Shown here in pieces: positions 4,794 to 41,926 of a stretch of 64,000 nucleotides of DNA. The notes beneath the pieces are model-generated. The model had not been told where the DNA came from and did not search any database. It was given only the letters and a program-made list of their open reading frames with translations. The position numbers and the translations under genes are program-made. Numbering within the stretch: the stretch's first letter is position 1; each line of letters starts with the position of its first letter. The stretch covers positions 3,830,633 to 3,894,632 of the forward strand of contig NZ_LT984884.1 of the NCBI RefSeq assembly GCF_900258515.1, read 5' to 3'. The DNA comes from Lentibacillus sp. Marseille-P4043 (GTDB lineage: Bacteria; Bacillota; Bacilli; Bacillales; Amphibacillaceae).

Positions 4794-4850
4794 CTTTACA
4801 CCCCCATTTTTAATTAAAAGAAAAAAGAAATTATATACCTTCTATATTCA

Positions 4851-7163: not shown

Positions 7164-7282
7164 TTTTCCTTTCCCTCCTAAATTTTTATTTTATATAAAG
7201 CAAATTCAAATCCCGAACTATGCATTAATCCCACCCTTCTTTCAAAAATAAGTTGACTATTTATCGGTGATTAACCTCACTT

Positions 7283-9241: not shown

Positions 9242-9325
9242 TTTATCTCCTCCCAATTATTAATGAATTTAAAATACTTATCATAATAAGGTCTTATTTT
9301 TACAAAAAAGAAGTAATCAAATTTT

Positions 9326-20852: not shown

Positions 20853-22292
20853 TTATTGTACCTTCCTATCCGCATCTATTTTCAAATTATTTGTCGGTGT
20901 TCCACTAACATTGTGAATTCCTTCTATTTTATTAGGGATTAATCCTAATAAAAAGAAAGCTATCAATGCAAATCCCGCATAGATCAATGTTGTATTGGAT
21001 AAAGCACTTGCTTTATCGCCAATAGAAGCAAACAGAGCTACTGCCACTAAAGAAAATGAAGCGCCTATACGTTGTGCAGTATTTTCGATTACAGTATTCG
21101 TGAAAGTAATAACATTGATACGATCAGATTTTGCCGTTGAAACTATAACAGCCTTCATTATAGGCTGTGTAAAACTCATTCCAAAACCTACTAGAAGCAG
21201 AGAAAAACCAATGTAAACTGAAGAGGTATCTATGTTAGTCATCGCTAGCAATACTAGACCTATAAGGAAAAGGCCAAGTCCTACACCAGTCATTACCCGA
21301 GCCGTAAATCTCTTTATAATTTTCCCACTTAATAGAGCCCCACCTGCTGATCCAAGAAAGATCAACATTTGCAATATCCCCACAACTGTAGCAGATTTAC
21401 CTTGTGCACCTTGCACAAAGAACGTTAATAAATACATGACACCAGAATATCCAATACCCACCAAAACTATTGTTAGAGTAGGTACCCAAAAATTCCTATG
21501 TTTTGTATAATTAATATCTAGTAATGGATCCTTTTTCTTTTTTTCAACCACGATTAATACCAGTAGTGCGATAGCGAAAACAGCAAGGGATGGTAGCCAT
21601 GCACCAGACGAAAATCCATAATTGTTAATAAAAGTTGGTATGGTTAAAAGACCTCCCAATACGATTAATGTTAAGATGATACCTGAAAGATCCAAGGAAC
21701 CTCGTTTTTTACTTTTAACTGCAGGTACACCAAAAAGAAACAACAAAAATGCCACAACCCCAAAAATCCCTGTAAGTACAAAGGTAAAAGCCCACCCCAT
21801 AGAATCAACAACGATACCACTTACAAATGGTCCAAATAAAGCTCCCAAAACAGAAAAGGCATAAAAAGCACCCAATGCTTTACCACGTAATTCGCCAACG
21901 TAAAATTTGCCGGCATAAGAGACACCTGCAGGAGCCGTAGCAGCACCTGCCATTCCTTGTAAAAAGAGTCCTACAATTAATAGCCAATAGGATATTTGGA
22001 TTGCTGCTAAAAGTGACCCTAGTATCATACACGTTGCTCCAATAAGAAGAGTAACCTTTAATCCGCGCTCATCCCCCAACCAACCTAATAAAGGTTGAAA
22101 ACCAGTTAGCCCCAGGGCAAGCCCTAATTGCATCCACACTGCATATCCCGCATTCAACCCAAACTCTTCCAATATATGGGGATAAGCTGGTAAATGTGTA
22201 GCTAAACTAAACATGACAAAAAAAGTACCAATACATAGAAAGTAAAATTCTTTAGAAAGTGACTTTCTCTCTCCTGGCAATTTCTCTTCCAT
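20853..22292 (-). CDS. MFS transporter of the catabolic operon
   Basis: 479 residues with 12-14 predicted membrane helices. The MFS loop signature is visible as GWLGDERGLKVTLL near residue 70, with a second-half counterpart SGKIIKRFTARVMTG. The N-terminus EEKLPGERKSLSKEF is cytoplasmic, and the C-terminus is polar. The ATG follows AAAGGAGG. It is the last gene of the minus-strand run starting at 31082, but 168 bases separate it from the aldehyde dehydrogenase gene, so it might have its own promoter. Most likely it imports the acid degraded by the operon; drug export, common in this superfamily, is the alternative. Confidence 0.8.
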   Translation of the reverse strand: MEEKLPGERKSLSKEFYFLCIGTFFVMFSLATHLPAYPHILEEFGLNAGYAVWMQLGLALGLTGFQPLLGWLGDERGLKVTLLIGATCMILGSLLAAIQISYWLLIVGLFLQGMAGAATAPAGVSYAGKFYVGELRGKALGAFYAFSVLGALFGPFVSGIVVDSMGWAFTFVLTGIFGVVAFLLFLFGVPAVKSKKRGSLDLSGIILTLIVLGGLLTIPTFINNYGFSSGAWLPSLAVFAIALLVLIVVEKKKKDPLLDINYTKHRNFWVPTLTIVLVGIGYSGVMYLLTFFVQGAQGKSATVVGILQMLIFLGSAGGALLSGKIIKRFTARVMTGVGLGLFLIGLVLLAMTNIDTSSVYIGFSLLLVGFGMSFTQPIMKAVIVSTAKSDRINVITFTNTVIENTAQRIGASFSLVAVALFASIGDKASALSNTTLIYAGFALIAFFLLGLIPNKIEGIHNVSGTPTNNLKIDADRKVQ

Positions 22293-22460
22293 TTTCTGTT
22301 CCTCCTTTAGTCTAATAGAAAAACCGTAATATATAATTTTTTCACAAAAATGAGGCTAAAATGAAAGTATCATGATTAATCATTTAAAAATAACCGTAAA
22401 TTATATTTTAAAAAAGATTCTTGAGTATAAATGGGCAGCCTCATAACTGCCCACTTGTAT

Positions 22461-23939
22461 TTAGCCTAAGCCAATAACACATGTTTTTTCATACGTATAT
22501 TCTAGAACCGTATCCGTACCATACCCGCTACCTTTCGTACCACCAAATGGCAAATCAGCACCTACTATACCATACGTATTAACCCATACATTACCTGCAT
22601 CTATCTTTTCTACCATACGGTGAGCTTTGCGTAAATCACTCGTCCATACTCCTGCTGCAAGCCCATATTCAGTGTCGTTCGCAATCTGTATCGCTTCTTC
22701 CTCGGTATCAAACGGTATAGCTACTGCGACTGGACCAAATATCTCCTCTTGGCAAATAGTCAATTCGTTGCTTTCGGCTTTAAACAAGGTTGGTTCTATC
22801 CAATACCCGCCAGAAAATTCAGGTTTATCTGCTAAAAGAACGTCTCCACCGAATCTTCCTCCAAAAACAATTTCTCCTCCTTCATCAAGACCTTTATCAA
22901 TATAAGAGCGAACTTTATGATACTGTGGTAAGTTAGCAATTGGCCCCATTGAATTTTCCGGGTCTAAGGTGTCACCGTATTTCACTGTTTGTGGATCCGC
23001 CATTTTTTCTTTTATCTTGGAGATTGTTTCATCAAATATTGATCGCTGAATAAGAATCCTCGATCCCGCAGCACATATTTGACCTGCATTACGAGTGTAT
23101 ATACCGTTTATTACTCCATTAGATGCATTATCCAGATTTGCATCTTCAAAGACAATATTTGGTGATTTCCCACCCAATTCAAAAATTAAAGATTTAGGAA
23201 TTTTAGCAGAAGCTCGAGTAATCGCTTCAGCCGTTTTTATTGATCCTGTCAAACTAACCTTATTAACTTGCTTATGGCCTACTAATGGGTCCCCAATTTC
23301 ACTTCCTAGTCCCGAAATCACATTGATTACTCCAGGTGGGAGAATTTCAGAGAGTATTTCTCCATAACGTAAAGATGCAGCTGTTGCTAGTTCCGATGGT
23401 TTAATGATTACTGTGTTTCCAGCAGCAAGTGCATATGCTGCTTTAATTGTGAACGTAAATAATGGTGCATTCCACGGTAGAATCCCCAATACGACGCCAT
23501 ATGGTTTTCTTAACGTATAACCAAAGTTTCCTTCTCCCATTTGCACTGTTTTGCCTTGCCCACCTACGAGAGGAGCGGCACCCGCGGCATCATACCAAAG
23601 CTGTTTTAGCACAATGGTGAGATACTGATACTGATCAAGGACCCACCCATTATTTTTTGTCTCAAGTTTTAATAACTCTTCTCCATGTTCGGAAAGCGCA
23701 TCACCAACACGTCGCAAATAGTCGCTTCGTTCTCGAGCTGAAATGGCTGACCAACTTGGAAATGCATTACTGGCTGCAGTCACAACATCCTCAACATCCT
23801 CTTTTGTACTTAGGGGAATTTGTGCCCAAGCCTTACCTGTTGAAGGATCAATACTATCCATTGTTTCCCCATTGGAAGAAGGAATTTGCTTTCCACCTAT
23901 AATATTATGAAACTGTTTCATACTTTTAATAGTTTCCAA
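22461..23939 (-). CDS. NAD(P)-dependent aldehyde dehydrogenase of the acyl side-chain operon
   Basis: About 492 residues of the ALDH superfamily: GILPWNAPLFTFTIKAAYAL (N-terminal cofactor region), SLTGSIKTAEAI, the catalytic Glu in FELGGKSPN and catalytic Cys in RNAGQICAAGSR, and EEIFGPVAVAIPFDTEEEA. It oxidises an aldehyde to the acid. The ATG at 23957 has no ribosome site; AAGGGTGG lies six bases before a TTG at 23939, which I take as the start (METIKSMKQ). It follows the second acyl-CoA dehydrogenase closely. In an aldolytic side-chain pathway it would remove the aldehyde released by the Ltp2-like enzyme, as Sad does in bacterial cholate degradation (inference by analogy). Confidence 0.88.
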   Translation of the reverse strand: METIKSMKQFHNIIGGKQIPSSNGETMDSIDPSTGKAWAQIPLSTKEDVEDVVTAASNAFPSWSAISARERSDYLRRVGDALSEHGEELLKLETKNNGWVLDQYQYLTIVLKQLWYDAAGAAPLVGGQGKTVQMGEGNFGYTLRKPYGVVLGILPWNAPLFTFTIKAAYALAAGNTVIIKPSELATAASLRYGEILSEILPPGVINVISGLGSEIGDPLVGHKQVNKVSLTGSIKTAEAITRASAKIPKSLIFELGGKSPNIVFEDANLDNASNGVINGIYTRNAGQICAAGSRILIQRSIFDETISKIKEKMADPQTVKYGDTLDPENSMGPIANLPQYHKVRSYIDKGLDEGGEIVFGGRFGGDVLLADKPEFSGGYWIEPTLFKAESNELTICQEEIFGPVAVAIPFDTEEEAIQIANDTEYGLAAGVWTSDLRKAHRMVEKIDAGNVWVNTYGIVGADLPFGGTKGSGYGTDTVLEYTYEKTCVIGLG

Positions 23940-23962
23940 AGTAAGTCCACCCTTCATTCTTT

Positions 23963-25123
23963 TTATTTAACAAAAGCATATTTTTCACCAATCCAGTGGA
24001 GTGCTTTAGCAATTTCTTCATTATAATGTGTAATGGAACCAAGGTAATTTTCAAAATAGCGTGCTCGCTTGAGGTATAAATGGCAATCCATTTCCTCTGT
24101 AAAACCGACACCACCGTGGATTTGAATATTATCTGATGCAGCACGAATATAAGCCTCCGTTGCAAAAGTACGCGCGCTATATATGGATGCTTCCCGGTCT
24201 TCTTCCTCATTTTCAAGTGACCAACTTGCATAGTAGCTTAAAGATCGAGCCGTTTCTAGTTCAAGTTTCATATCGACAATTGTATGTTTTACAGCCTGAA
24301 AACGCCCGATAGGCTGACCAAATTGCTCACGAATTTTTGCATATTCAGTCGACATTTCAACCACTTTTTCCATTCCGCCAACAATCATGGAACTGAGCGC
24401 AGCATTGAGGTACAACAACCCTTCCTGTAAAATAGGCCAGCCTTGATGAATTGGGCCAAGGAGCTGCTGTTTTGAAACATTCACATCATCAAATGTTATT
24501 TCAGACAGGTGTTGGGTTTCATCCACACATTTTTGCATACGAATTTCCATCTCTTTCGTTTGATCGACAAGTACTAATGAAATTCCTTCCCCTTCAATAG
24601 AATCAGAAGTTCGTACAACCAATAAATATGTGTCAGCCGAACCTCCATGCGGTACAAGCTCCTTCACTCCATTTATAACAAATGAATCTCCTTCTTGATT
24701 TGTTGAACATGAAATTTCATCAGGTTTGTAACCCTTTTGTGGCTCTAACCAAGCAAGTGTAAAACTTCTTTCACCTGATGCTATTTCCGGTAAATATTTT
24801 TCTTTTTGTTCCTTTGTGCCATACTTCTCAAGTAATGGCACAACTAAAGCCATAGTCTCCAAATGAATACCAGGCAATAGTGACCGCCCGATTTCTTCAA
24901 AAACAGGTACTAAGTCTACTGATCCGAGCCCCAGACCTCCATATTCTTCAGAAATATTAATAGCAGTTGCACCAAGCTCTGCTAGGCCTGTTCTTGTTTT
25001 GTCTAATTTCTTTGTATTGCCTTGAATAAATTCACGTGCAATATCGGTTTGTCCAGCATCATCTAAATACTTGCGCAAATATCCACGAAACATTTCCTGT
25101 TCCTCATTTAAAGCAAAATCCAT
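23963..25123 (-). CDS. Acyl-CoA dehydrogenase, probable non-catalytic subunit of a heteromer
   Basis: 386 residues with the three-domain acyl-CoA dehydrogenase fold. FAD-binding REQFGQPIGRFQAVKH (residues 265-280) is present, but neither known catalytic-base position carries Glu: the C-terminal loop reads YLGSITHYNE instead of YEGT, and the helix aligned with HERTGIG of the neighbour reads YLNAALS. In mycobacterial ChsE1-ChsE2 and ChsE4-ChsE5 complexes one subunit similarly gives FAD contacts and the other the base, forming alpha2beta2 enzymes with half the usual active sites. It begins 22 bases after the other dehydrogenase gene. Confidence 0.88.
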   Translation of the reverse strand: MDFALNEEQEMFRGYLRKYLDDAGQTDIAREFIQGNTKKLDKTRTGLAELGATAINISEEYGGLGLGSVDLVPVFEEIGRSLLPGIHLETMALVVPLLEKYGTKEQKEKYLPEIASGERSFTLAWLEPQKGYKPDEISCSTNQEGDSFVINGVKELVPHGGSADTYLLVVRTSDSIEGEGISLVLVDQTKEMEIRMQKCVDETQHLSEITFDDVNVSKQQLLGPIHQGWPILQEGLLYLNAALSSMIVGGMEKVVEMSTEYAKIREQFGQPIGRFQAVKHTIVDMKLELETARSLSYYASWSLENEEEDREASIYSARTFATEAYIRAASDNIQIHGGVGFTEEMDCHLYLKRARYFENYLGSITHYNEEIAKALHWIGEKYAFVK

Positions 25124-25145
25124 TTATCTTACACCTCCATTTCAG

Positions 25146-26342
25146 TTAACGTCCCATATCTTTTGGTAAACCTAATACACGTTCGCCTATTGTATTTCGC
25201 TGTACTTCACTTGTACCGCCGCCAATTGTCTGGCCAAATGATGCTAGAAAATGATCTTGCCAAACCGTATCAACAGGTGCATCTTCTTTCCATAAAACTC
25301 CTCTGTGACCTTGTATTGACACCATAAAGCCGGCCATTTCTTTCGTGAGTTCACTAACCATTAATTTGTCAATAGAGCTTTCTGGACCTGGTTGCCCCTT
25401 TTTCAGTGTTGTCGTTAAATTTCGGTAGTAATTTAACAGTGATCCTCGAAACCGGGCGTAAAAACTAGCCATCTTTTGCCTCACAAATGGATCCTCAATT
25501 AACGGTTTACCATTTGCCTTGTATTCTTTTGTAAGCGCAACCATATCATTGAAACGTTTTTCAAGTGTAAACAATTCAGCGCCAATACCTGTTCGTTCAT
25601 GCAGCATTAATGCAATCATGACTCTCCAACCTTTATCAACCTCACCTACGATATCAGCATCATACGCAACAGCATCCGTTAGGTACACTTCATTAAACTC
25701 CTGCTGGCCATCCATTTGCGTAATAGGTCTTGTTTCGACACCTGGCTGGTGCATGTCTAGTAAAAACGCTGTAATCCCTCGATGCTTTTTTTCCTGATTA
25801 TTACTTGTTCGGGCCAGTAAAAAGCATTTATCGGCTAAATGACCAAAACTAGTCCAAACTTTCTGACCATTAATAATCCACTTATCCCCTTGTTTAACTG
25901 CGCTTGTTTTAATTGCTGACAAATCAGATCCTGCATTCGGTTCTGAATACCCCTGACACCATACCTCTTCACCTGTAACTATTTTCTTAATATACTTCTC
26001 TTTTTGTTCTTCAGTTCCAGACTGTATCAGTGTCGGCCCAACCATATGAATACCTATATAGTTTACTAGTGGCGGCGCTTCTACCCGAACCATCTCCTGA
26101 TGATAGATGATTTCTTCCATTAACGTGGCATCCCGGCCGCCATACTCTTTAGGCCATGCAACTGCGGCCCATCCACCTTCATATAACGTTTTCTGCCAAT
26201 CCCGTAAAAACGTTGAATACGCCTCTTTATCCTTGGGCAATTCCCTATTCCCCTCAAGCCAACCTTGAGGGAGATTTTCCTCCAGCCATGATCGTAATTC
26301 ATGGCGAAATGATTCTTCTTGTTTTGAAATAGAAAAATCCAT
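25146..26342 (-). CDS. Acyl-CoA dehydrogenase, probable catalytic subunit
   Basis: 398 residues. CQGYSEPNAGSDLSAIKTSA and WTSFGHLADKCFLLARTS are the usual mid-domain segments; IGGGTSEVQRNTIGERVLGLP is the C-terminal signature with Gly where medium-chain enzymes have Glu. Glu249 in LMLHERTGIGAE sits where isovaleryl-CoA and FadE26-type enzymes keep the catalytic base. The FAD arginine motif REQFG is replaced by KANGKPLIEDPFVRQK, again like FadE26-type partners. It oxidises an acyl-CoA to the 2,3-enoyl-CoA, probably with the product of 23963-25123. The ATG is preceded by an AGAGGAGG-like site. Confidence 0.88.
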   Translation of the reverse strand: MDFSISKQEESFRHELRSWLEENLPQGWLEGNRELPKDKEAYSTFLRDWQKTLYEGGWAAVAWPKEYGGRDATLMEEIIYHQEMVRVEAPPLVNYIGIHMVGPTLIQSGTEEQKEKYIKKIVTGEEVWCQGYSEPNAGSDLSAIKTSAVKQGDKWIINGQKVWTSFGHLADKCFLLARTSNNQEKKHRGITAFLLDMHQPGVETRPITQMDGQQEFNEVYLTDAVAYDADIVGEVDKGWRVMIALMLHERTGIGAELFTLEKRFNDMVALTKEYKANGKPLIEDPFVRQKMASFYARFRGSLLNYYRNLTTTLKKGQPGPESSIDKLMVSELTKEMAGFMVSIQGHRGVLWKEDAPVDTVWQDHFLASFGQTIGGGTSEVQRNTIGERVLGLPKDMGR

Positions 26343-26385
26343 TTTGTACCGTCCTCCTCTTATCCGAATGATTACATTTTCTGTT

Positions 26386-26808
26386 TCAATCCACTACTGG
26401 AACCCATTGAGGAAGTGCTCTATCTTCAGTGATATCCTGCCAGGCCATCTCTACAGGCATACCAATGTAAACATTATCAGCCTTACAATCTATCACATTA
26501 CACATAATCTTCACTTCTGGAACTTTTTCTAATTCAGCCTGCGCAATAATCAATGGCAAATCATCCTGAAAACCTGGTAAAAAAGGCCGATAGGAAATGA
26601 CATAGGAATAGATTTTGGCCTTCACATCTCCACCCAGTTCTTCCCATATAATGTCCTGACTTCCGCACTTTGCACAACTTGGTCCAGATGGGTGTGCATA
26701 ATGACCACAACTATTGCACTTTTGTAAAGCTAGTTCATGTCGATCGGCCGCATCCCAATACGGATGATTATCCTGCGTTTTGAGTGGAATTGGTTTTTGA
26801 TATTCCAT
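26386..26808 (-). CDS. DUF35 zinc-ribbon/OB-fold protein (ChsH2 C-terminal-domain-like)
   Basis: 140 residues: a rubredoxin-like zinc ribbon with Cys31, Cys34, Cys45 and Cys48 (CNSCGHYAHPSGPSCAKCGS), then an OB fold. Proteins of this type bind thiolase-fold partners: the DUF35 domain of ChsH2 forms the retro-aldolase with Ltp2 in actinobacterial steroid side-chain degradation. Here it is a separate gene, 11 bases downstream of the Ltp2-like gene, so a complex of the two products is very likely. In ChsH2 the same module is fused to a MaoC domain, which here is encoded separately at 28457-28903. Confidence 0.85.
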   Translation of the reverse strand: MEYQKPIPLKTQDNHPYWDAADRHELALQKCNSCGHYAHPSGPSCAKCGSQDIIWEELGGDVKAKIYSYVISYRPFLPGFQDDLPLIIAQAELEKVPEVKIMCNVIDCKADNVYIGMPVEMAWQDITEDRALPQWVPVVD

Positions 26809-26819
26809 GATTAACCCTC

Positions 26820-27980
26820 CTAATTTCTAAGAATCATTGCACCAGCGATGTCTGGTCCTGCCCAGCCAGTACATATGCCAATTTCACAACTTTCGACTTG
26901 ACGATCTGTTCCTTCATATTGATGGCGTAACTGCCTAACAATTTCAAGTACATTGTTCATTCCGTGCGTATAACCTTCTGACAGCATGCCACCAGCCGTA
27001 TTTGTCGGCAGTTTACCACCTAAACGGAGATTGCCTTCTGCCACGAACTCTCCAACTTCTCCACGTGGGGCAAATCCATAAGCCTCCAGTTGACGCAATA
27101 CGACCCAGCTAAAGCAATCATAAATGGAAGCTACGTCAATATCTTCCGGTTTCACACCTGCCGATTTATATAATCCTGGAGCTACATAATCGGAAGCTAC
27201 TTGAGTTATATCGGACCAATAATGTGCATGTGGGTGACACTGTCTAGATTCCATCCCCATAATGTAGACAGGTTTTGATTTACAGTCTTTGGCTCGTTCT
27301 GCTGATGTAACAATGATTGCATTTGCTTCATCCAATTCAACACAGGAGTCGTGTATATTAAATGGATAACTGATATCAGGTGTATCCAGATATTTTTCCA
27401 TTGTTAAAGGTTTTCCATGTAAAAATGCTTTCGGATTTCGCTGCGCATGTTCGTAAAAACTTACACACAAATGACCAAGATGTTCTTTTGTAATTCCTGT
27501 TTCGTGCATATGACGGGTGGCAAACATTCCAAACCATTGCGAGGGGCTTGCTGATCCGTATGGAATAATATAACTTCCACCAGGCAGCGCTGATTGTAAC
27601 ATGTTAGGGTCGTACCCTCTGCCTACCCGCTGTCCAGAACTACCATTCATGGAGCGGAAAATTAAAACGGTATTTAATTCCCCTGCCTCAATTAGTGCAA
27701 TTGCATCGCTAATTAGCATTTCTGTACTACTTCCGCCACCATGTATATCTTTTACATACTTTGGACGGACACCTAGGTATGTTGCCAGCTGATGTGAGGT
27801 ACAAGAGTCATTTTCGTTATAATTCATGAATCCATCGATATCCTGAGCGTCTAGACCAGCATCGTTAATCGCAGCCCTAGCTGCATCTAACGCCATATGC
27901 AATGGAGTTGTTCCAGAATTTCTAGAACGTTCACTTTCTCCTACGCCTACGATTGCGTAACGGTCTGTAATAGTTCCCAT
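26820..27980 (-). CDS. Ltp2-like thiolase-fold protein, probable acyl-CoA retro-aldolase
   Basis: 386 residues of the SCP2-thiolase/lipid-transfer group. The nucleophile loop reads HGGGSSTEM (residues 80-88), with no Cys where thiolases carry one, so thiolysis is unlikely. Tyr287 in SIYDCFSW and Tyr337 in GGMLSEGYTHGMN lie 50 residues apart, at motifs that in Ltp2 hold tyrosines implicated in C-C cleavage. Together with the DUF35 protein it should split a 3-hydroxyacyl-CoA into a shorter acyl-CoA (acetyl- or propionyl-CoA) and an aldehyde or ketone. The neighbouring aldehyde dehydrogenase suits an aldehyde product. A classical beta-ketothiolase role is the alternative, argued against by the missing Cys. 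Confidence 0.85.
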   Translation of the reverse strand: MGTITDRYAIVGVGESERSRNSGTTPLHMALDAARAAINDAGLDAQDIDGFMNYNENDSCTSHQLATYLGVRPKYVKDIHGGGSSTEMLISDAIALIEAGELNTVLIFRSMNGSSGQRVGRGYDPNMLQSALPGGSYIIPYGSASPSQWFGMFATRHMHETGITKEHLGHLCVSFYEHAQRNPKAFLHGKPLTMEKYLDTPDISYPFNIHDSCVELDEANAIIVTSAERAKDCKSKPVYIMGMESRQCHPHAHYWSDITQVASDYVAPGLYKSAGVKPEDIDVASIYDCFSWVVLRQLEAYGFAPRGEVGEFVAEGNLRLGGKLPTNTAGGMLSEGYTHGMNNVLEIVRQLRHQYEGTDRQVESCEIGICTGWAGPDIAGAMILRN

Positions 27981-28010
27981 CTTTTAAACCTCCTTCTATA
28001 ATTGCAATGT

Positions 28011-28442
28011 TTATCCAAAACATAATACAGCTTTACCAGATCCAACTACTTCTCCAGGTGATTTCTCTGCTTTGAGGTCTAAACCCACATAGTTCTTACC
28101 TCTTTCTTCATAAATCTTTTCTACAGTTGCCGAACAAGTAATTTCATCGCCTGGTCTAGTCATAGCCCCAAAACGCATACGAAACCGGGAAAGCTCTGCC
28201 GTGTTTCCAGCAAGCTCTTGCACATATTGGCCTAAAAATCCCATAACTAACATTCCATGAGCAATCACACCATTCATGCCAAGCTTTTGTGCAAATTCAT
28301 CATCTGTATGCAATGGATTAAAATCACCAGAGGCTCCAGCATATTTTACTAATTGAACTTTCGTAACAGGTGGCTTGGTAAGGGGCTCAAGCTGCTGACC
28401 TACTTTTAATGACTCGTATTGCAATTCCGTTTTCAATAGCAT
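28011..28442 (-). CDS. MaoC-family enoyl-CoA hydratase, catalytic subunit
   Basis: 143 residues, single hot-dog domain. The hydratase-2 motif is intact: GDFNPLHTD, with Asp and His five residues apart, followed by GVIAHGMLVMGF. It adds water to a 2-enoyl-CoA. A GTG at 28460 overlaps the preceding gene and contains the ribosome site; GGAGGG before the ATG at 28442 decides the start. It pairs with the degenerate MaoC-like product of 28457-28903, matching the ChsH1/ChsH2 division of labour. Confidence 0.88.
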   Translation of the reverse strand: MLLKTELQYESLKVGQQLEPLTKPPVTKVQLVKYAGASGDFNPLHTDDEFAQKLGMNGVIAHGMLVMGFLGQYVQELAGNTAELSRFRMRFGAMTRPGDEITCSATVEKIYEERGKNYVGLDLKAEKSPGEVVGSGKAVLCFG

Positions 28443-28456
28443 GTAATACCCTCCAT

Positions 28457-28903
28457 TCACGAAGTAGTAAGTTTGCGGTAAATAATATTTGTACGACTAA
28501 TTACCACTAACTCGCCTGCATCATCTTTCATTTCTGTATCAAGAATCAAAAACTGCATGCTGCCACTTTTACCTTCACGTTCGTACAAGTCAGCAACCTT
28601 CATTTGGCAATGCAGCCGATCCCCTGGGTGAATCGATTGATAATAGATAAATTCTTGTTCGCCATGTAGCATTCTTCTAGTATCCAATTCAAGTGGAAAC
28701 CCAGCTCCTTCTGAACCTACAGCCATTGGAAAAGTCGGCGGAGCAATTGGTTCACCATATGGTGTTTGTGAGGCATAATCCTCATCCGTGTATAATGGAT
28801 TGGTATCACCAATTGCTTCAGCAAATTTTCGAACATGTCCTTTTTCAACTTCAAAAATATACTTTTCACCAGTTAAACCAATAACACTTTTATCTAACTC
28901 CAT
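28457..28903 (-). CDS. MaoC/FAS1-type dehydratase-like protein, probable non-catalytic partner
   Basis: 148 residues with the N-terminal MaoC (FAS1-like dehydratase) fold. The motif region reads GDTNPLYTD: the catalytic His of the hydratase dyad is Tyr, so the domain is probably inactive by itself. In ChsH1-ChsH2 the MaoC half of ChsH2 has lost its dyad and binds the acyl chain while ChsH1 is catalytic. The ATG at 28903 follows GGGAGG at 7 bases; an in-frame upstream ATG at 28945 lies within the preceding gene and lacks a site. Four bases separate it from the CoA-ligase gene. Confidence 0.85.
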   Translation of the reverse strand: MELDKSVIGLTGEKYIFEVEKGHVRKFAEAIGDTNPLYTDEDYASQTPYGEPIAPPTFPMAVGSEGAGFPLELDTRRMLHGEQEFIYYQSIHPGDRLHCQMKVADLYEREGKSGSMQFLILDTEMKDDAGELVVISRTNIIYRKLTTS

Positions 28904-28907
28904 ACCG

Positions 28908-31082
28908 TTACCTCCCAACCACTGATGTTTGATTTTTAGATTCATTCACAACAAGCATTGCATCCGCAGCTACAATACCTTTTTCATAAACGATAAGCGG
29001 ATTAATATCTAATTCCTTTATTTCATCTTTATAATCAGATACGAGTTTAGAAACGCGTAGCAATACATCTGCAATCGCGTCAATATCAACAGGTGGTTTT
29101 CCACGTGCCCCTTTTAGGATTTTATAGCCCTTAATTTCTTCAATCATTTCAATAGCATCATTCTTTGTAATTGGCGCAACTCTGAATGAAATATCCTGAA
29201 AAATTTCTACAAAAACGCCACCAAGACCAAACATGATAACTGGTCCAAAAGCAGGGTCATTCGTAACGCCAACAATCACTTCAACCCCTTCAGGAAGCAT
29301 TTGCTGGACAGAAACACCATTGATTTTTGCATTTGGTTTATAGTTTTTTGCATTTTGCATAATTTCTTTAAAGGCAACGCTTACCTCTAGATCATTTTTC
29401 AGATTTAGCTTAATAGCATTTGCCTCAGACTTATGTGGAATATCAGGTGAATCTATTTTTAAGGCAACAGGATATCCAATTTTATCCGCATGGCTAACAG
29501 CATTATCCTCTGAACTAGCCACCGCTCTCTTCGTTGTTGGAATTCCATATGATGCTAAAACATCACTTGCTTGTGATTCACTTAGCGTAGTTCCAGGCTG
29601 TAATAAACTTGATATATCTTCCTTTTTGTCCCATTCAGTCATTAACTCATCATCCGCTAGTTTCATTTTGTGATATTTTTCACTATAGTTTACTAGCTTT
29701 GCTAACGCACTGATTGGATTTAAGTTCCCTGGTATTACTGGAATACCATTTTTTTCAAGCGCTGCAGCCGAATTGGGAATGGACATCCCCTCTAAAGGAA
29801 ACGTTGTCACAAACACTAACTTATCCGTGTTTTTGCATATCTCTATAAACGCTTTAACATGAGGATCATCCGCTTTCCAAGCCATCGGGAATTCGGTGAA
29901 AATAATAATATCCGTGTCTGGATCCTCAACAAGAGCCTTCAATGGCGCAAGAAATAACTCAGGGTTTGTAACGGCGGCTTCAGCAGTCAAGTCAATCGGA
30001 TTTGAAGCGCTTCCATAAGACGGGATGTTTTGTTTGATTTTATCTTTTGTTTCTTCACTTAACCTATTGATTTTTAGCCCATAAGATTCGCAACGATCGG
30101 CTTCATTTATTCCTCGTCCACCTGAGCTGGTAATAAGGACAGTATTTCTACCAGTTGGAAGTTTCTTAGAAAGGAACAATTTCGAAAAGGAAATTATATC
30201 TTCATAGTCATCCGCCCTGATAATACCTGTCTGTTGGAAAAATCCATCATAGATTTTATCCGAGCCTGCCAATGATCCAGTGTGTGACGCTGCTGCCCTG
30301 CTACCTGCTGAACTCCTCCCAGATTTCATAACGATAATTGGTTTATTTTTAACTAGAGCCTGATCTGCAAGTTGCCGCAATTTATTTGGATTTTTCTCTC
30401 CCTCCAAATATCCGCTTATGACACTTGTATCTGAATCATGAATCATATACTCCATGATATCGGAAAATTCCGTTTCCACTTCATTACCTACACTTACAAA
30501 GTAATTGAAGGTTAATCCATTTTGGGCAGCCGCTATATAGGTCAGCACGCCAAATGCTCCACTTTGTGTAATAAATCCGACTTCCCTTTTGTCACTTAAT
30601 GGAAGTTGGGTAAGACCTGGCGAAAAAGTTCCTACTAAACCGTTAGTAGTGTTCACTAATCCAACACAATTAGGTCCAATAATTCGGATACCATTTTCTC
30701 GGGCTATCTGTTTCATACGCTGCTGCGCTTTCATTCCTTCTTCTCCAATTTCAGAAAAACCGGAAGCGAAAATTATTGCTGCCTTCACATTATTTTGACC
30801 GCATTCTTCAAGGCAATCCTCCACTTTGTCAGCGCTTACACAAAAGATCGCCAAATCTACATTCTTAGGTGTTTCACTTAAGGACGGAAAGCAACGTAAC
30901 CCTGTAATCATCTCCGATTTAGGATTGATGGGATAAATATCCCCTTGGAATCCGCCATCCAATAAAGCTTTCACCTGTAAATAGCCTAGTTTACTTTTTT
31001 TTGCAGATGCTCCTAGGACTGCTACAGTTTTTGGCTTTAACAATGGTTCAATGGTCAAATAAGATGCTTGTTCATCAGCCAT
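28908..31082 (-). CDS. ADP-forming acyl-CoA synthetase of the side-chain operon
   Basis: About 724 residues, fused alpha-beta architecture: CoA-binding domain (AVLGASAKKSKLGY), catalytic His in AASHTGSLAGS, ATP-grasp domain with KIGYPVALKIDSPDIPHKSEA and MFGLGGVFVEIFQD. It activates the substrate acid to its CoA ester. A GTG at 31091 is part of the GAGGTG ribosome site, so the ATG at 31082 is the start. It is the first gene of a tightly packed run (spacings of 4, 14, 30, 11, 43, 22 and 23 bases) reaching the aldehyde dehydrogenase. It is related to the product of 2691-4793 but clearly diverged. Confidence 0.9.
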   Translation of the reverse strand: MADEQASYLTIEPLLKPKTVAVLGASAKKSKLGYLQVKALLDGGFQGDIYPINPKSEMITGLRCFPSLSETPKNVDLAIFCVSADKVEDCLEECGQNNVKAAIIFASGFSEIGEEGMKAQQRMKQIARENGIRIIGPNCVGLVNTTNGLVGTFSPGLTQLPLSDKREVGFITQSGAFGVLTYIAAAQNGLTFNYFVSVGNEVETEFSDIMEYMIHDSDTSVISGYLEGEKNPNKLRQLADQALVKNKPIIVMKSGRSSAGSRAAASHTGSLAGSDKIYDGFFQQTGIIRADDYEDIISFSKLFLSKKLPTGRNTVLITSSGGRGINEADRCESYGLKINRLSEETKDKIKQNIPSYGSASNPIDLTAEAAVTNPELFLAPLKALVEDPDTDIIIFTEFPMAWKADDPHVKAFIEICKNTDKLVFVTTFPLEGMSIPNSAAALEKNGIPVIPGNLNPISALAKLVNYSEKYHKMKLADDELMTEWDKKEDISSLLQPGTTLSESQASDVLASYGIPTTKRAVASSEDNAVSHADKIGYPVALKIDSPDIPHKSEANAIKLNLKNDLEVSVAFKEIMQNAKNYKPNAKINGVSVQQMLPEGVEVIVGVTNDPAFGPVIMFGLGGVFVEIFQDISFRVAPITKNDAIEMIEEIKGYKILKGARGKPPVDIDAIADVLLRVSKLVSDYKDEIKELDINPLIVYEKGIVAADAMLVVNESKNQTSVVGR

Positions 31083-31167
31083 TTTAATCACCTCATCTTT
31101 TTATTCTTTTATTATTTATAACTTGGGAATAATTTTACAATATACATTTGAATTTTCTAAAAAAATA

Positions 31168-31186: not shown

Positions 31187-31330
31187 ATTATTAGGTTGTA
31201 AATTTTTATAAAAAGTCCCATAAACTCCTGTATATAAGGCAATTAAAAACATCAAAATTAATTTATGAACGGAATAAACACGACTATGGTACACGACAAC
31301 CTCGACTTATGATGTGGATAATCTCCAAAT

Positions 31331-31464: not shown

Positions 31465-33540
31465 TTATAGAGAGTCTTCATAACGCTGCAGCCAATTTAT
31501 TATCCGGTTATTAATTTTATTTGACGGTGTTTTAATGTCTCTCTCAATATTACTTAAATATGAAACAGATACTTCCAAATCATCAGCTACTTGCAGTAAA
31601 GTGAGTCCAAATCTTTTTCGTATAGCTTTCATTTGCTTCCCTAATTTGTCCTTTTTTTCTTCCCCACTATGATTTCCAATGTATCCTGTAGTGGTACTTC
31701 TAACACTTTTGGCTCTTGTAATGGCACTGTATTTTTCCTTGATTACCTTAGGAGGATCAATAAGAATAGTTGAATTGGCCCATATGCGAGCCCAACCATT
31801 AGACGAAACGATAGATTCATCCCATTTCTCATACTGCCACGAAGCAATTAGGCCAGCTTCCGTTAAGCTGTCAAGCGCATGTTCTAATCTATCTCTTGTA
31901 CGGGACGGTGTACGTATATTCATTTTCTTACCAATTGCATCTAGCAAACTGCTTATTTTATGTGGCTGTAGATAATCTCCCTTCCTAGCCTGTGTCCTCC
32001 ATCTCCAACTTAAGTATCTGATAAGCTTTTTTTTCCACACTTCTTGATATGGGTTGTATTGCAATGCTTGTACTGGAAGCATTGCAACTTGTCTCCCCGA
32101 ACCATTTAGATATTTAGCAAAGACTTCATCTACAGTAAATCTGAATAATTTTTCCAGTGGTTGTTTACTTATATCATATTCTTTGTAATCTTGATTAAAA
32201 AAAACAAACGTGCGTCCTTTAAGCGTTTTTTGCATTGGTTTCCCTTTTTCATATACAACAGCCTTTTCCAAGTCAATCCACAAATTCTGTATCCTTGATA
32301 ACGCTTTCAAAATTTGGCTACGTTGCTCATTTTCATATCCCCCTCGGCGGCCACTCCCACTAAGCTTTGGTTTTAAGCCACGAATGGATAATAAATCATC
32401 AAGATATATTTCTACAATATCTTGGTGGTGTGTTGAATTTGCTAGATAAAAACTGCAAAGCGCATCCAATACGTCTGCGTCTAATTCTGACATTTCCTTT
32501 GCCTGTCGCCAGGATTCACTAATTCCTGTCTCATCAACCGTTAAATCGTGTTTGTCGAGACTGTATGGTTTAATTTGTACTATTCCTTCAATGGTATTTT
32601 TGCTTATTTGTGCTGTGGGAAATGGGCTATGACTTGATCTATCAAAACGTTTGTTGGAAATTGTCTCTCTTACCGACTGATAGGCTACGTTACTCATCAC
32701 AAGTAAATTCCCCTTGTCAATTAGTGTAAATGTTATATCGTTTTTTACCGACTTGGCATTGTTAATCGGTAGAGAACTATTATTAAGGTCCAAAAAATTG
32801 TTGATCTCGCTTATTGTGAGATTTTCTACGTCAAGATTGGATATAATTTTTTTAATCCAATTCTGGACACGATATTCAACAACCTTTCTAAAGTTAACCA
32901 TAAATTGACCATTAGCTTTTAAGTGTTTTGTAAGGTAGTTATAAAATAACTCATTTAGCTTGGTCGGATCTAATTTTACTAGTTTTGTATAGCCCGTCTT
33001 TTTCACCATATCATCAAGCACCCAATCGGTTAGGTATGATTTAAACCAGCCACAAAAATTTTCCCATACTGTATCATCAGCCAGAAACGTTTCATTCCTT
33101 AACAGCAATTCTATTTTTTTTATCGCCTTATCTAATAAGGTCTTATCTTTTAACTTAGGATGACGATACATAGAAATCCCAATTATATTCTTATATTCCT
33201 CTAAGAAATCAGCTACAATTATAGTTGCTATCCGAATAATAAGGTTATCCCTTGCCACAAATCTTAGTTTAAGAAACAGATCCTTATTTTCTTGATAGGA
33301 TTGCTCCCAAATAATAAATGTATCGGTTTCTGTTCTATCCCTAAATATTGGTATATTAGCCTTTTGTCCCCTTACTATATCTTTGGAAAAAACTTTTAGA
33401 ATATTTCTGCTATCGTGTGTTTCTTTAGTGTTATTAATATAAAGCACATGAAAATTACAGATCTTTTCTACAAGATAGCCGAATGAACCCACAATATTAT
33501 CATCAGAAATGACACCCTTTGCTATATCAGTATTATTCAA
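31465..33540 (-). CDS. Large Rep-like winged-helix protein with C-terminal HTH
   Basis: 691 residues. The last 60 contain an XRE-type helix-turn-helix (LTLLQVADDLEVSVSYLSNIER). The middle (about residues 360-560) reads like a replication-initiator winged helix: DVLDALCSFYLAN, YLDDLLSIRGLKPK, GRRGGYENEQRSQILKALSRI and LPVQALQYNPYQEVWKK. The N-terminal 200 residues are helical and unfamiliar. The start is a TTG seven bases after GGAGGTG; the open frame extends upstream through that site. No partition or transfer genes adjoin it. It could be a plasmid/ICE-derived initiator stranded in the chromosome or a large transcription factor; I cannot decide. Confidence 0.6.
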   Translation of the reverse strand: MNNTDIAKGVISDDNIVGSFGYLVEKICNFHVLYINNTKETHDSRNILKVFSKDIVRGQKANIPIFRDRTETDTFIIWEQSYQENKDLFLKLRFVARDNLIIRIATIIVADFLEEYKNIIGISMYRHPKLKDKTLLDKAIKKIELLLRNETFLADDTVWENFCGWFKSYLTDWVLDDMVKKTGYTKLVKLDPTKLNELFYNYLTKHLKANGQFMVNFRKVVEYRVQNWIKKIISNLDVENLTISEINNFLDLNNSSLPINNAKSVKNDITFTLIDKGNLLVMSNVAYQSVRETISNKRFDRSSHSPFPTAQISKNTIEGIVQIKPYSLDKHDLTVDETGISESWRQAKEMSELDADVLDALCSFYLANSTHHQDIVEIYLDDLLSIRGLKPKLSGSGRRGGYENEQRSQILKALSRIQNLWIDLEKAVVYEKGKPMQKTLKGRTFVFFNQDYKEYDISKQPLEKLFRFTVDEVFAKYLNGSGRQVAMLPVQALQYNPYQEVWKKKLIRYLSWRWRTQARKGDYLQPHKISSLLDAIGKKMNIRTPSRTRDRLEHALDSLTEAGLIASWQYEKWDESIVSSNGWARIWANSTILIDPPKVIKEKYSAITRAKSVRSTTTGYIGNHSGEEKKDKLGKQMKAIRKRFGLTLLQVADDLEVSVSYLSNIERDIKTPSNKINNRIINWLQRYEDSL

Positions 33541-33837
33541 TGTAAACACCTCCAAATGGATAACTTATGCATATATCGTATCATACCTCTTGTTAAGATT
33601 CTATATTTTCTGAATTTATATTTGACGAATTCTGAGTTATTAATTAAAACCTTTTCACTTAGAATAAAGATATAATTTAAGCGATACTAGCGTTACATAC
33701 ATAGATGTAGTCAATGTATTCTGTAAACATCATTCCTGTAATTTTAGCCAAAAAGGAAAAGTTTAATCAAAGGTGGTTCCATCATTTGTTGGGTTTCCAA
33801 ACCGACCCACCTATATTTTATCTGCAAACCATTTCTT

Positions 33838-35250: not shown

Positions 35251-35324
<74 letters not shown>

Positions 35325-35335
35325 ATATATGGTAA

Positions 35336-35409
35336 TGGAGCGGGTGAAGGGAATTGAACCCTCGACATCAGCTTGGAAGGCTGAGGTTTTACCACTAAAC
35401 TACACCCGC
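35336..35409 (-). tRNA. tRNA-Gly (TCC)
   Basis: 74 bases including encoded CCA; anticodon TCC in CTTCCAAG. A partial copy of its 5' half lies upstream at 35536-35566. Confidence 0.97.
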
Positions 35410-35535
35410 ATATAATAAATTGCGTTTAAAAATGATGACTCTCGCGAAAGGCATGCCTCTACATCTGCTAGCGTACTCAGGGATGTATATGCTTCGAGGC
35501 AACTCGTAGCTTATTCGGTAGAAGTAACGCTCGTG
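35410..35535. repeat. Insert between tRNA-Gly and its partial copy
   Basis: About 125 bases. The part next to the tRNA fragment (AGCTTATTCGGTAGAAG) is shared with the insert near tRNA-Thr (AGCTTATTCGGCAGAAG), so the two belong to one family. Confidence 0.5.
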
Positions 35536-35566
35536 GCTGAGGTTTTACCACTAAACTACACCCGCA
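35536..35566 (-). pseudogene. tRNA-Gly 5'-half fragment
   Basis: Identical to the first ~31 bases of the tRNA-Gly gene (acceptor 5' strand, D arm, start of anticodon stem), stopping before the anticodon. No T arm follows. Confidence 0.85.
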
Positions 35567-35601
35567 ATTAATTTGTCATGTGAGTAATCTAATTAATCTG
35601 A

Positions 35602-35684
35602 TGGAGGGAGTAGGACTCGAACCTACGAACCCAATGGGAGCGGATTTACAGTCCGCCGCGTTTGGCCAACTTCGCTATCCCTCC
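35602..35684 (-). tRNA. tRNA-Tyr (GTA)
   Basis: 83 bases with a long variable arm and anticodon GTA in CTGTAAAT. CCA is not encoded (ATCA). Confidence 0.97.
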
Positions 35685-35698
35685 ACTATTTTAAAGAA

Positions 35699-35774
<76 letters not shown>

Positions 35775-35873
35775 ATGTAAGTTTTTAAAAGTAGTATTGT
35801 TCTCGTATTTCATGTTGGTTTCGAAGCATATTCTAGGATATGTTTCGAAAATTTTATTTCCTGATATTATGTA

Positions 35874-35966
35874 TGGAGGAGGTAGAGGGATTCGAACCCC
35901 CGCGCGGTTTGACCCGCCTGTCGGTTTTCAAGACCGATCCCTTCAGCCAGACTTGGGTATACCTCC
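35874..35966 (-). tRNA. tRNA-Ser (TGA)
   Basis: 93 bases, long variable arm, anticodon TGA in CTTGAAAA, encoded CCA. Confidence 0.97.
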
Positions 35967-35979
35967 GTACGTAATTAAA

Positions 35980-36055
35980 TGGTGGAGCCTAGCGGGATCG
36001 AACCGCTGACCTCCTGCGTGCAAGGCAGGCGCTCTCCCAGCTGAGCTAAGGCCCC
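35980..36055 (-). tRNA. tRNA-Ala (TGC)
   Basis: 76 bases with encoded CCA; anticodon TGC in CTTGCACG. Confidence 0.97.
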
Positions 36056-36112
36056 ATGTAATGTTTGAGAAAACAGAATTTGTACTGCGACCCCATAGTC
36101 CCCTTCTATGAA

Positions 36113-36197
36113 TGGTGCGGGTGAAGGGAGTCGAACCCCCACATCCGAAGATACTAGATCCTAAGTCTAGCGCGTCTGCCAATTCCGCCACACCCGC
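36113..36197 (-). tRNA. tRNA-Leu (TAG)
   Basis: 85 bases, long variable arm, anticodon TAG in CTTAGGAT, encoded CCA. Confidence 0.97.
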
Positions 36198-36235
36198 ATG
36201 ATGGGTCTTTTGATAAATTCATTGATAAAAGTCAG

Positions 36236-36308
<73 letters not shown>

Positions 36309-36432
36309 ATATTAATTTTAGGCTTTTTTATCTTACATGTATGTTCATCAAGTGTGCTCGTCATGTTGCAAGTTTATTCGCAGATGTCAATGCATCGGGG
36401 TTACTCGCAGCTTATTCGGCAGAAGAATTGCT
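36309..36432. repeat. Insert between tRNA-Thr and its partial copy
   Basis: About 120 bases containing GCTCGTCATGTTGCAAG and AGCTTATTCGGCAGAAG. The first is shared with the insert near tRNA-fMet, the second with the insert near tRNA-Gly. Confidence 0.5.
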
Positions 36433-36462
36433 CGTTGCTCTACCAATTGAGCTAAACCGGCA
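36433..36462 (-). pseudogene. tRNA-Thr 5' fragment
   Basis: About 30 bases matching the start of the tRNA-Thr gene with two to three changes (acceptor strand and D arm), ending before the anticodon. Confidence 0.8.
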
Positions 36463-36467
36463 TTTGA

Positions 36468-36544
36468 TGGCGGTCTGGACGGGACTCGAACCCGCGACCT
36501 CCTGCGTGACAGGCAGGCATTCTAACCAGCTGAACTACCAGACC
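36468..36544 (-). tRNA. tRNA-Asp (GTC)
   Basis: 77 bases with encoded CCA; anticodon GTC in CTGTCACG. Confidence 0.97.
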
Positions 36545-36548
36545 ATTT

Positions 36549-36625
36549 TGGTTGCGGGGGCAGGATTTGAACCTACGACCTCTGGGTTATGAGCCCAACG
36601 AGCTACCAGACTGCTCCACCCCGCG
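36549..36625 (-). tRNA. Initiator tRNA-fMet (CAT)
   Basis: 77 bases with encoded CCA; anticodon CAT. Initiator features are visible: first base C unpaired with A at the end of the acceptor stem, and three G-C pairs in the anticodon stem (GGG/CCC). Confidence 0.97.
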
Positions 36626-36754
36626 ATATAATTAAAATATTAAAATTTCCCCTGCTCTTTAAATAACTTCCACCGTGAATGCTCGTCGTGTTGCAAGCTG
36701 TTTCGGTGATGTTGCACTCCTCGCAAGCCTGCACATAGCAGCTTAATCAAAGAT
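36626..36754. repeat. Insert between tRNA-fMet and its partial copy
   Basis: About 130 bases with GCTCGTCGTGTTGCAAG, shared with the insert near tRNA-Thr, and TAGCAGCTTAAT, resembling the AGCTTATTC motif of the other two. Confidence 0.45.
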
Positions 36755-36776
36755 GCTAACGGCTTGCTCCGCCCCG
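36755..36776 (-). pseudogene. tRNA-fMet 5' fragment
   Basis: About 22 bases resembling the fMet gene start (CGCGGGGCGGAGCA versus CGCGGGGTGGAGCA), then diverging. Confidence 0.6.
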
Positions 36777-36805
36777 CGATATAAGGATATTTATTTTTAA
36801 TTTAA

Positions 36806-36881
36806 TGGTGGAGGATGCAGGGCTCGAACCTGCGACCCCCTGCTTGTAAGGCAGGTGCTCTCCCAGCTGAGCTAATCCTCC
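36806..36881 (-). tRNA. tRNA-Val (TAC)
   Basis: 76 bases with encoded CCA; anticodon TAC in CTTACAAG. Confidence 0.97.
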
Positions 36882-36887
36882 ATTTAG

Positions 36888-36962
36888 TGGTGACCCGTAC
36901 GGGATTCGAACCCGTGTTACCGCCGTGAAAGGGCGGTGTCTTAACCACTTGACCAACGGGCC
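36888..36962 (-). tRNA. tRNA-Glu (TTC)
   Basis: 75 bases with encoded CCA; anticodon TTC in CTTTCACG. First tRNA after the 5S gene. Confidence 0.97.
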
Positions 36963-37075
36963 AATTGATTTTTCACAAATAAATAGCTCCACAGATAGAC
37001 TCCGTGTCTATGACCGCTAATAGCCAAATGTTTGGCCATCAAGGTACTGTGGAGCGATTTAAAATTAAATTGATT

Positions 37076-37192
37076 GCCTAGCGGCGTCCTACTCTTGCAG
37101 GGGCAATGCCCCAACTACCATCGGCGTTGGAGAGCTTAACTGCTGTGTTCGGCATGGAAACAGGTGTGACCTCTCCGCTATTGCTACTAGGC
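37076..37192 (-). rRNA. rrf: 5S ribosomal RNA
   Basis: About 117 bases. GCCTAG at one end pairs with CTAGGC at the other, and the inside contains GAACACAGCAGTTAAGCTC and GAGTAGGACGCCGC, typical of Bacillus 5S RNA. It lies 66 bases after the 23S end. Confidence 0.95.
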
Positions 37193-37257
37193 CTTTATGA
37201 GGTAACCTATGTACCTTCAAAACTAGATAAGATTTACCTAAGACATAAACATAATTG

Positions 37258-40180
<2,923 letters not shown>

Positions 40181-40351
40181 TTATATTAAGATTAAGAACT
40201 TAAATTTGATGTCGTTGAATGTCTTACTCTTATTTAGTTTTCAAGGTACAAAGCGAGAGATTCACTCTCTCAAAACTGAACCAAACAACCAAGTACGCCC
40301 TTACCGAGGAGATCATCTGAAATGACCTCACTCCGCGTTCCTTCTAATAAT

Positions 40352-41926
<1,575 letters not shown>

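Follow-up and report, generated by a model that had tools for sequence, protein, structure and literature searches.

The thiolase-fold retro-aldolases characterised in PMC12329534 and PMC11321319 act on steroid side chains and come from Actinobacteria and Proteobacteria. The two systems compared here are the actinobacterial Ltp2-ChsH2(DUF35) aldolase (structure 6ok1) of the igr operon and the proteobacterial bile acid aldolase Sal-Shy (9myr). We analysed a stretch of 64,000 nucleotides from Lentibacillus sp. Marseille-P4043 (contig NZ_LT984884.1, positions 3,830,633 to 3,894,632; "the window"), in which genes of this kind lie on the minus strand behind a set of 22-bp direct repeats and a gene for a putative 696-residue regulator. 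We consider it fairly probable that they form a catabolic operon, probably for a bulky or hindered carboxylic acid, with one aldolytic rather than thiolytic shortening step, and that the operon is controlled by a domesticated plasmid replication initiator. Among the papers listed in literature searches, none dealt, by title and the start of the abstract, with an Ltp2/Sal-type operon in Bacillales or with an initiator-type regulator of a catabolic operon.

The putative aldolytic gene set

The initial annotation had proposed an igr-like aldolytic side-chain operon, with its parts in order on one strand. We found all of these parts on the minus strand at 20853-31091, followed by a transporter gene:

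28908..31091, minus strand: nucleoside diphosphate (NDP)-forming acyl-CoA ligase; start at GTG 31091 or ATG 31082
28457..28945, minus strand: MaoC_A, presumed non-catalytic hydratase partner; GDTNPLY, with the catalytic His changed to Tyr as in ChsH2
28011..28460, minus strand: MaoC_B, presumed catalytic hydratase subunit, HadB-like; GDFNPLH
26820..27980, minus strand: putative thiolase-fold retro-aldolase (below, the aldolase); Tyr287/Cys289/Tyr337, N-terminal thiolase Cys absent
26386..26808, minus strand: DUF35 partner (zf-ChsH2 + OB_ChsH2_C); C-x2-C-x10-C-x2-C
25146..26342, minus strand: acyl-CoA dehydrogenase subunit a; presumed catalytic Glu249
23963..25123, minus strand: acyl-CoA dehydrogenase subunit b; Leu at the Glu of YEGT in 4l1f, R-x-Q-F kept
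22461..23957, minus strand: aldehyde dehydrogenase (ALDH); Glu in [FL]ELGGKS, Cys in GQ[ILF]C
20853..22292, minus strand: major facilitator superfamily (MFS) transporter, DHA2/EmrB-like, under the family cut-off

The gaps from ligase to ALDH measure -38 to +43 bp, and 168 bp separate the ALDH and MFS genes. Promoter and terminator scans gave no excess over shuffled sequences (43 versus 48.2 and 8 versus 9.7). The CoA ligase that had been annotated is present and proves to be NDP-forming, not AMP-forming: it matches PF13607, PF13549 and PF13380, and its nearest solved chain is the ADP-forming 4-hydroxybutyrate-CoA ligase 8wzu.

A scan of named genomes with the aldolase confirmed 221 places, and the distribution figures rest on the best 80 of them. 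Forty-three are Bacillales loci with 70-90% identity to the aldolase, in Virgibacillus, Oceanobacillus, Sporosarcina, Neobacillus, Peribacillus, Cytobacillus, Mesobacillus, Viridibacillus, Bhargavaea, Planococcus, Lysinibacillus, Solibacillus, Caryophanon, Kurthia and Bacillus. One more is betaproteobacterial (L067, 57%), and the remaining 36, in Chloroflexota, Rokubacteria, Pseudomonadota, Myxococcota, Actinomadura and others, show 41-45% identity. Genes at each locus were matched at thresholds of 42% identity and 70% length. All 43 Bacillales loci, fetched by the aldolase alone, contain the same six core genes (both MaoC genes, aldolase, DUF35 and both dehydrogenase subunits); in L056 the MaoC pair follows the rest. 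Since these genes are together in every locus, their grouping is not due to chance. The other genes vary: the NDP-forming ligase was matched in 27 loci, ALDH in 31 and the MFS gene in 19, AMP-forming ligases of two kinds occur in 13 other loci (one of each kind was identified), and electron transfer flavoprotein (ETF) genes follow the operon in 7. Within the window's own family, the aldolase clade (at least 83% identity) was present in 8 of 159 genomes, and 34 more had distant relatives only. The module is widespread yet patchy in Bacillales.

Some loci showed variations of their own. In Viridibacillus arvi (L043, 6844-9018) the NDP-forming ligase lies in two separate frames, with the repeats and the operon core kept. 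In six Sporosarcina loci (L029-L032, L036 and L085) the operon directly follows a gyrase A family gene (the L029 copy was identified), which places it perhaps near the chromosomal origin. A betaproteobacterial metagenome-assembled genome (L067, 6765-11598) has the aldolase (57%), DUF35 and NDP-forming ligase; neither a dehydrogenase nor a MaoC gene was matched, and genes resembling tripartite transporters and dehydratases were noted by eye. There, a 3-hydroxy acid may be activated directly.

Active-site residues were compared in 44 sequences, those of the 43 Bacillales loci and the window. The nucleophilic thiolase Cys is absent from the aldolase in all 44, and the signature YDC[FY] with EGYTHGM is kept in all 44. 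Tyr287 and Cys289 align with the catalytic Tyr302 and Cys304 of CtSal, and Tyr337 aligns with the catalytic Tyr344 of TcLtp2 (catalytic residues as given in the excerpt of PMC12329534). In the tree, the aldolase joins TcLtp2 with a Shimodaira-Hasegawa-like approximate likelihood ratio (SH-aLRT) support of 98 and is not grouped with BbsB. The early description of an Ltp2-like protein devoid of the thiolase Cys is borne out by these results, and the tree did not return the placement among active thiolases that had been named as telling against it. Because the protein groups with Ltp2 but carries a conserved signature of its own, we best explain it as an enzyme that would cleave a 3-hydroxyacyl-CoA by a retro-aldol reaction, and we regard the enzyme part of the operon as a new clade of a known kind.

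We regard it as very improbable that the protein is instead a thiolase, decarboxylase or acyltransferase within an operon for ordinary beta-oxidation or condensation. DUF35 partners also accompany true thiolases and acyltransferases (BbsAB, PhlABC and the HMG-CoA synthase complex), but the missing Cys, the separation from BbsB and a core that lacks a 3-hydroxyacyl-CoA dehydrogenase all argue against this. Of the two catalytic Cys of SCP2-type thiolases, the N-terminal one is absent from the aldolase.

The partner proteins show a similar division between active and degenerate subunits. MaoC_B keeps the Asp/His dyad (His in 44/44), and MaoC_A has Tyr for His in 43 sequences and Phe in one, which is the pattern of ChsH1-ChsH2-type hydratases; ChsH2 likewise has the His-to-Tyr change (PMC11321319, excerpt). 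A MaoC_B/MaoC_A heterodimer is presumed from these residues. The split MaoC pair noted earlier is present, one member active-type and one with His changed to Tyr. As a sign of aldol chemistry we rejected it: such a pair is not diagnostic because an ordinary-looking beta-oxidation cluster elsewhere in the same genome (L006; by eye with a short-chain dehydrogenase and a thiolase holding its Cys) also has one. In dehydrogenase a, Glu249 (in HER) aligns with position 247 of 4x28_A, and the Glu is kept in 44/44; we take 4x28 to be ChsE4 and position 247 its catalytic residue. In dehydrogenase b, none of the 44 sequences has a Glu where 4l1f has that of YEGT, and R-x-Q-F is kept. With a catalytic Glu in one subunit only and a degenerate partner, as in ChsE4-ChsE5 and PimCD, the two dehydrogenases of the initial annotation, both present, look like two unlike subunits of one acyl-CoA dehydrogenase. 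DUF35 carries the zinc pattern C-x2-C-x10-C-x2-C (C4, as in ChsH2) in 44/44, not the C3H1 site that the excerpt of PMC12329534 gives for Shy.

The locus resembles both described systems in part. With Ltp2-ChsH2 and igr it shares a thiolase fold lacking the Cys, a DUF35 partner with a C4 zinc site, the catalytic Tyr positions (294, 344), a heterodimeric MaoC with Tyr for His and a heteromeric dehydrogenase. It differs in its YDC[FY], where Ltp2 has YDHF (Cys for His after YD, the Tyr344 equivalent being present), in a free rather than MaoC-fused DUF35, in having an NDP-forming ligase and ALDH and no P450 in the operon (igr presumably includes one), and in its Bacillales host. With Sal-Shy it shares the Tyr-Asp-Cys positions and the use of an aldehyde dehydrogenase (Sad) in the route. 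Tyr337 takes the place of Gln352 of Sal, however, and EGYTHGM stands in place of the Sal-type FGQAGGM, which is found separately in the same family; the DUF35 of Sal-Shy is fused to MaoC and has a C3H1 site, whereas here a free C4 protein goes with a separate heterodimeric hydratase. Identity to Sal is 26% over the 9myr structure. A further related system is IpfD/IpfE of ibuprofen degradation, in which an SCP2-type thiolase-like protein and its DUF35 partner take off an acyl-CoA side chain, there after ring dioxygenation.

Two other groups of proteins were seen. Four loci of the window's family (L021, L022, L023 and L026) encode proteins with Sal-type YDCY and FGQAGGM and a DUF35 neighbour, joining CtSal in the tree at 92; by these motifs they are a candidate for a separate Firmicute aldolase group. 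L070-L106 (37 loci, L085 excepted) form a clade with YDAF and EGYTHGM, DUF35 adjoining in most loci. Its hosts include Chloroflexota, Rokubacteria, Reyranella and Actinomadura, and luciferase-like monooxygenase-like genes stand near some copies (by eye). Given that Ala occupies the position of the catalytic Cys of Sal, the chemistry of this clade may differ.

The putative regulator gene and the 22-bp repeats

The control part of the operon would be more surprising than the enzyme part. The extent first assigned to the unit captured the gene block and took in the MFS gene; it left out the features upstream:

31465..33555, minus strand: regulator gene, 696 aa; N-terminal extension ~1-135, initiator-like core ~279-607, C-terminal XRE helix-turn-helix (HTH) ~632-695
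31263..31328, minus strand: iteron-like array of three 22-bp units, the first degenerate: TTGGAGATTATCCACATCATAA / GTCGAGGTTGTCGTGTACCATA / GTCGTGTTTATTCCGTTCATAA
31182..31195, minus strand: A+T-rich element CCTAATAATCAAAT, 67 bp beyond the array; promoter-associated or unwinding-element-like

Of 159 family genomes, the 8 with the aldolase clade all have the regulator gene, and the other 151 do not (8/8 versus 0/151). Its core is predicted to fold like the plasmid replication initiators RctB, pi and RepE (predicted local distance difference test [pLDDT] 75.7, predicted template modelling score [pTM] 0.52). The VIA rows for the protein span residues 279-604 and 632-695, so that the N-terminal 278 residues are barely covered. 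Matches in PHROGs are confined to the HTH, and no relative was found among phage records at E 0.01. A single viral fold match under E 0.001 had a root mean square deviation of 26.6 and was not used.

The 22-bp array was first spotted in one Oceanobacillus locus and then tested across 31 regulator-linked loci and 13 others (the 43 loci and the window). A general intergenic repeat search gave mostly scattered pairs. The units stand upstream of the first operon gene in exact 22-bp steps, with the consensus GTCGGGGTTATCtTGaACAAAA. A fixed 11-letter rule requiring at least two units 22 bp apart found 24 of the 31 regulator-linked loci versus none of the 13 others on the operon strand (L052 among the latter had the one reverse-strand match). 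The same rule gave a mean of 0.26 and a maximum of 2 in 200 Markov resamplings, 4 at a spacing of 21 bp, and at most 1 at each other spacing from 15 to 29. With a weight matrix made from 52 units, 42 pairs scored >15 bits in the 43 loci and the window (1.90 Mb, both strands counted); each of them preceded the operon on its own strand, and repeats were found in 29 of the 31 regulator-linked loci. An initiator gene would be expected to have tandem direct repeats of ~17-22 bp linked to it; the 22-bp units of these 29 loci, which the regulator is predicted to bind, are of this kind. The iterons of R6K and pPS10 are also 22 bp long (excerpt of PMC4980987).

Anchoring 242 between-genus pairs on the array showed the units to be 55-61% identical, compared with 25-30% for DNA 44-110 bp upstream. 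Allowing small shifts brought the units to 56-62% and the upstream DNA to 42-48%; the 22 bp that follow the array then reached 54%. In our own genome (3.93 Mb) the repeat pattern, with up to one mismatch allowed, matched once, with 0 mismatches. The array is followed by the A+T-rich element CCTAATAATTAAAT, a motif read off the same loci in which it was counted. Of 30 loci, 25 carry it with 10 or more of its 14 letters, against a mean of 11.3 and a maximum of 17 in Markov shuffles, and in 16 of the 30 it lay 66-69 bp past the array.

Relatives of the regulator are also carried by plasmids, at one place per record in 33 records. Direct repeats stand upstream of the homologue in four of the five examined, and the N-terminal extension is absent from the five aligned. 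The homologues may be replication proteins, and possibly constitute an unrecognised replicon family of large Bacillaceae plasmids. In four plasmids (L131, L133, L134 and L135, L133 from Klebsiella) the homologue is preceded by the direct repeats, and an opposite-strand gene lies before these.

The main rival explanation is that an iteron plasmid carrying the operon became integrated and left its origin behind as the regulator gene and repeats, whose role, now or in the past, would be in DNA replication and not in control of the operon. Plasmids usually have their Rep gene next to iterons, the regulator has relatives on plasmids (four of the five examined adjoin repeats), and an A+T-rich, unwinding-element-like sequence follows the array. 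Yet in 29 loci the repeats precede the first operon gene in its direction. Among these are nine Sporosarcina loci in which the regulator gene lies past the 3' end of the operon, ~10 kb from the repeats. Bacillus testis has aldolase genes with neither regulator nor repeats beside them; more than 1 Mb away are the regulator, repeats, NDP-forming ligase, ALDH and, by eye, an MFS gene, the repeats (34 bits, outside the training set) standing in front of the ligase-ALDH pair. These positions in Sporosarcina and B. testis weaken the rival. An array of only two or three units, the joint occurrence of regulator and aldolase clade in 8 of 159 genomes and the N-terminal extension missing from the plasmid homologues speak against it too, and we consider an integrated origin improbable. 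Most likely, the control unit is a domesticated initiator acting on chromosomal iterons. Such a protein would resemble pi of R6K, RepE of F and RctB in its direct repeats (here of 22 bp, as in R6K), in its plasmid-borne relatives and perhaps in a winged-helix core, as the model predicts. It differs from them in its C-terminal XRE domain, its N-terminal extension, the lack of a Pfam Rep family among the matches listed, and its chromosomal setting with repeats before a catabolic operon.

Several observations weigh against the reading of an aldolytic operon under such control. The initiator-like core comes from a model of middling confidence. No Rep family was among the best 25 of 35 Pfam families for 25 regulator members (E 1), nor among the matches of the five plasmid homologues (E 0.1); that these homologues replicate plasmids is itself deduced, and their repeats differ from the 22-bp units in length and spacing. 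The regulator is altogether absent from 11 of 12 searched operon genomes without an adjoining copy, implying that the enzymes can do without it, and the Kurthia loci L060 and L063 have the regulator and no array. A reversed control pattern also matched once in our own genome. On the enzyme side, ALDH was unmatched in 12 of 43 loci, and YDCF occurs also in Trypanosoma SLP, whose function is described as unclear in the excerpt of PMC12329534. Finally, the rule and the matrix were derived from most of the loci that they find. For this reason seven genus groups were left out in turn: all 25 held-out loci kept their best pair in place, with none >12 bits elsewhere. Four loci (L043, L057, L064 and L068) had been outside the training set throughout.

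Substrate and proposed pathway

The initial annotation offered a bile acid, a terpenoid or a phenylpropanoid acid as possible substrates, and advised a search for ring-degradation genes elsewhere in the genome. We searched 31 of the 44 operon genomes (our own and 30 drafts of unstated completeness) with four ring-cleavage families. The intradiol family was over its cut-off in 3 of 31. The extradiol model TIGR03211 matched 29 at E 0.001, mostly weakly, with 5 over cut-off and 13, our own genome included, at 100 bits or more. PaaA/PaaC (phenylacetate epoxidase) exceeded the cut-off in 7, and gentisate matches were never over cut-off, with >200 bits in 4. By cut-off or bit limits, at least one family is present in 15 genomes and none of the four in 16. 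In our own genome PaaA/C is over cut-off, and a single extradiol-like gene stays below its own. Because 16 of 31 genomes lack a strong match, ring opening by these routes is not a necessary part of the pathway. The early reading is partly supported: its aldolytic part is what gene content and residues best suggest, and a steroid or aromatic growth substrate is not supported.

Could the operon still act on the side chain of a steroid or bile acid, like its actinobacterial and proteobacterial counterparts, with partial side-chain removal only? The ring-cleavage results would be compatible with that, the Ltp2-ChsH2 complex is the nearest solved relative of both aldolase and DUF35, dehydrogenase a has its nearest solved relatives in 4x28 and 6wy8 (both, we assume, steroid enzymes), and a heterodimeric MaoC and dehydrogenase suit bulky CoA esters. 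The 16 genomes with no strong intradiol, extradiol, phenylacetate-epoxidase or gentisate match count against it, however, as does the presence of a split MaoC pair in an ordinary cluster elsewhere in this genome. Two AMP-forming ligases match steroid-24-oyl-CoA synthetase, but as one family among many, and of the matches listed all but one are below cut-off. We rejected membership in a steroid or bile acid pathway because the motifs of Ltp2 and Sal do not fit and a ring-cleavage partner is inconstant, and we hold a steroid substrate to be quite unlikely.

Hindered, branched or isoprenoid acids are candidates. A more specific proposal is a 3-methyl-branched isoprenoid acid blocked for thiolysis, which retro-aldol cleavage would turn into a methyl ketone, with the ALDH acting upstream from isoprenoid aldehyde to acid. 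Its tertiary 3-hydroxyl would not be open to thiolysis, Tyr337 is the residue of the Ltp2 type, which acts on a tertiary alcohol, the ALDH and ligase genes of B. testis stand as a unit of their own, and no ring-cleavage partner would be needed. In the 31 of 43 loci with an ALDH gene, though, this gene is placed after those of the dehydrogenase. This substrate seems unlikely to us, if somewhat less so than a steroid.

From the gene content, residues, predicted folds and repeats we infer the following reactions, complexes and control. The ligase would form an acyl-CoA, which the two-subunit dehydrogenase would convert to 2-enoyl-CoA, passing electrons to ETF. The MaoC_B/MaoC_A heterodimer would hydrate this product, and the aldolase with DUF35 would cleave the 3-hydroxyacyl-CoA to acetyl- or propionyl-CoA and an aldehyde or ketone, with Tyr287 as base and Cys289 and/or Tyr337 as acid. 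The ALDH may turn a released aldehyde into an acid or make the starting acid upstream. The regulator is predicted to bind the two to three 22-bp repeats before the first gene and to switch the operon, as an activator or a repressor. As a further idea, less likely than not, we suggest that the logic of an initiator was kept: the regulator would read the iterons cooperatively and open the A+T-rich element ~67 bp on for RNA polymerase, its added N-terminal domain would sense the substrate or CoA ester, and the aldolase would be a third active-site solution (Tyr-Cys-Tyr) among thiolase-fold retro-aldolases.

Other genes of the window and implications

A second NDP-forming acyl-CoA ligase (2691-4793) lies between metallo-beta-lactamase-fold genes (1469-2683 and 4851-6092), with a fused TRAP-type transporter (7283-9256) nearby; this appears to be another small catabolic cluster (1469-9256), named by eye from translations. 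Upstream of the regulator gene, a tRNA cluster and 5S-23S-16S rRNA genes occupy 35251-41922 on the minus strand. A long repetitive stretch at 59814-60675 is open in several frames on both strands, with GASARTSAR-like repeats.

The Bacillales clade has an active-site signature of its own and lacks a consistent ring-cleavage partner. This suggests that thiolase-fold retro-aldolases have a wider chemistry than steroid side chains, and the clade supplies enzymes ready for assay. If the proposed control is true, an initiator-like protein with iteron-like repeats before a metabolic operon would mark a route from plasmid replication machinery to gene regulation.

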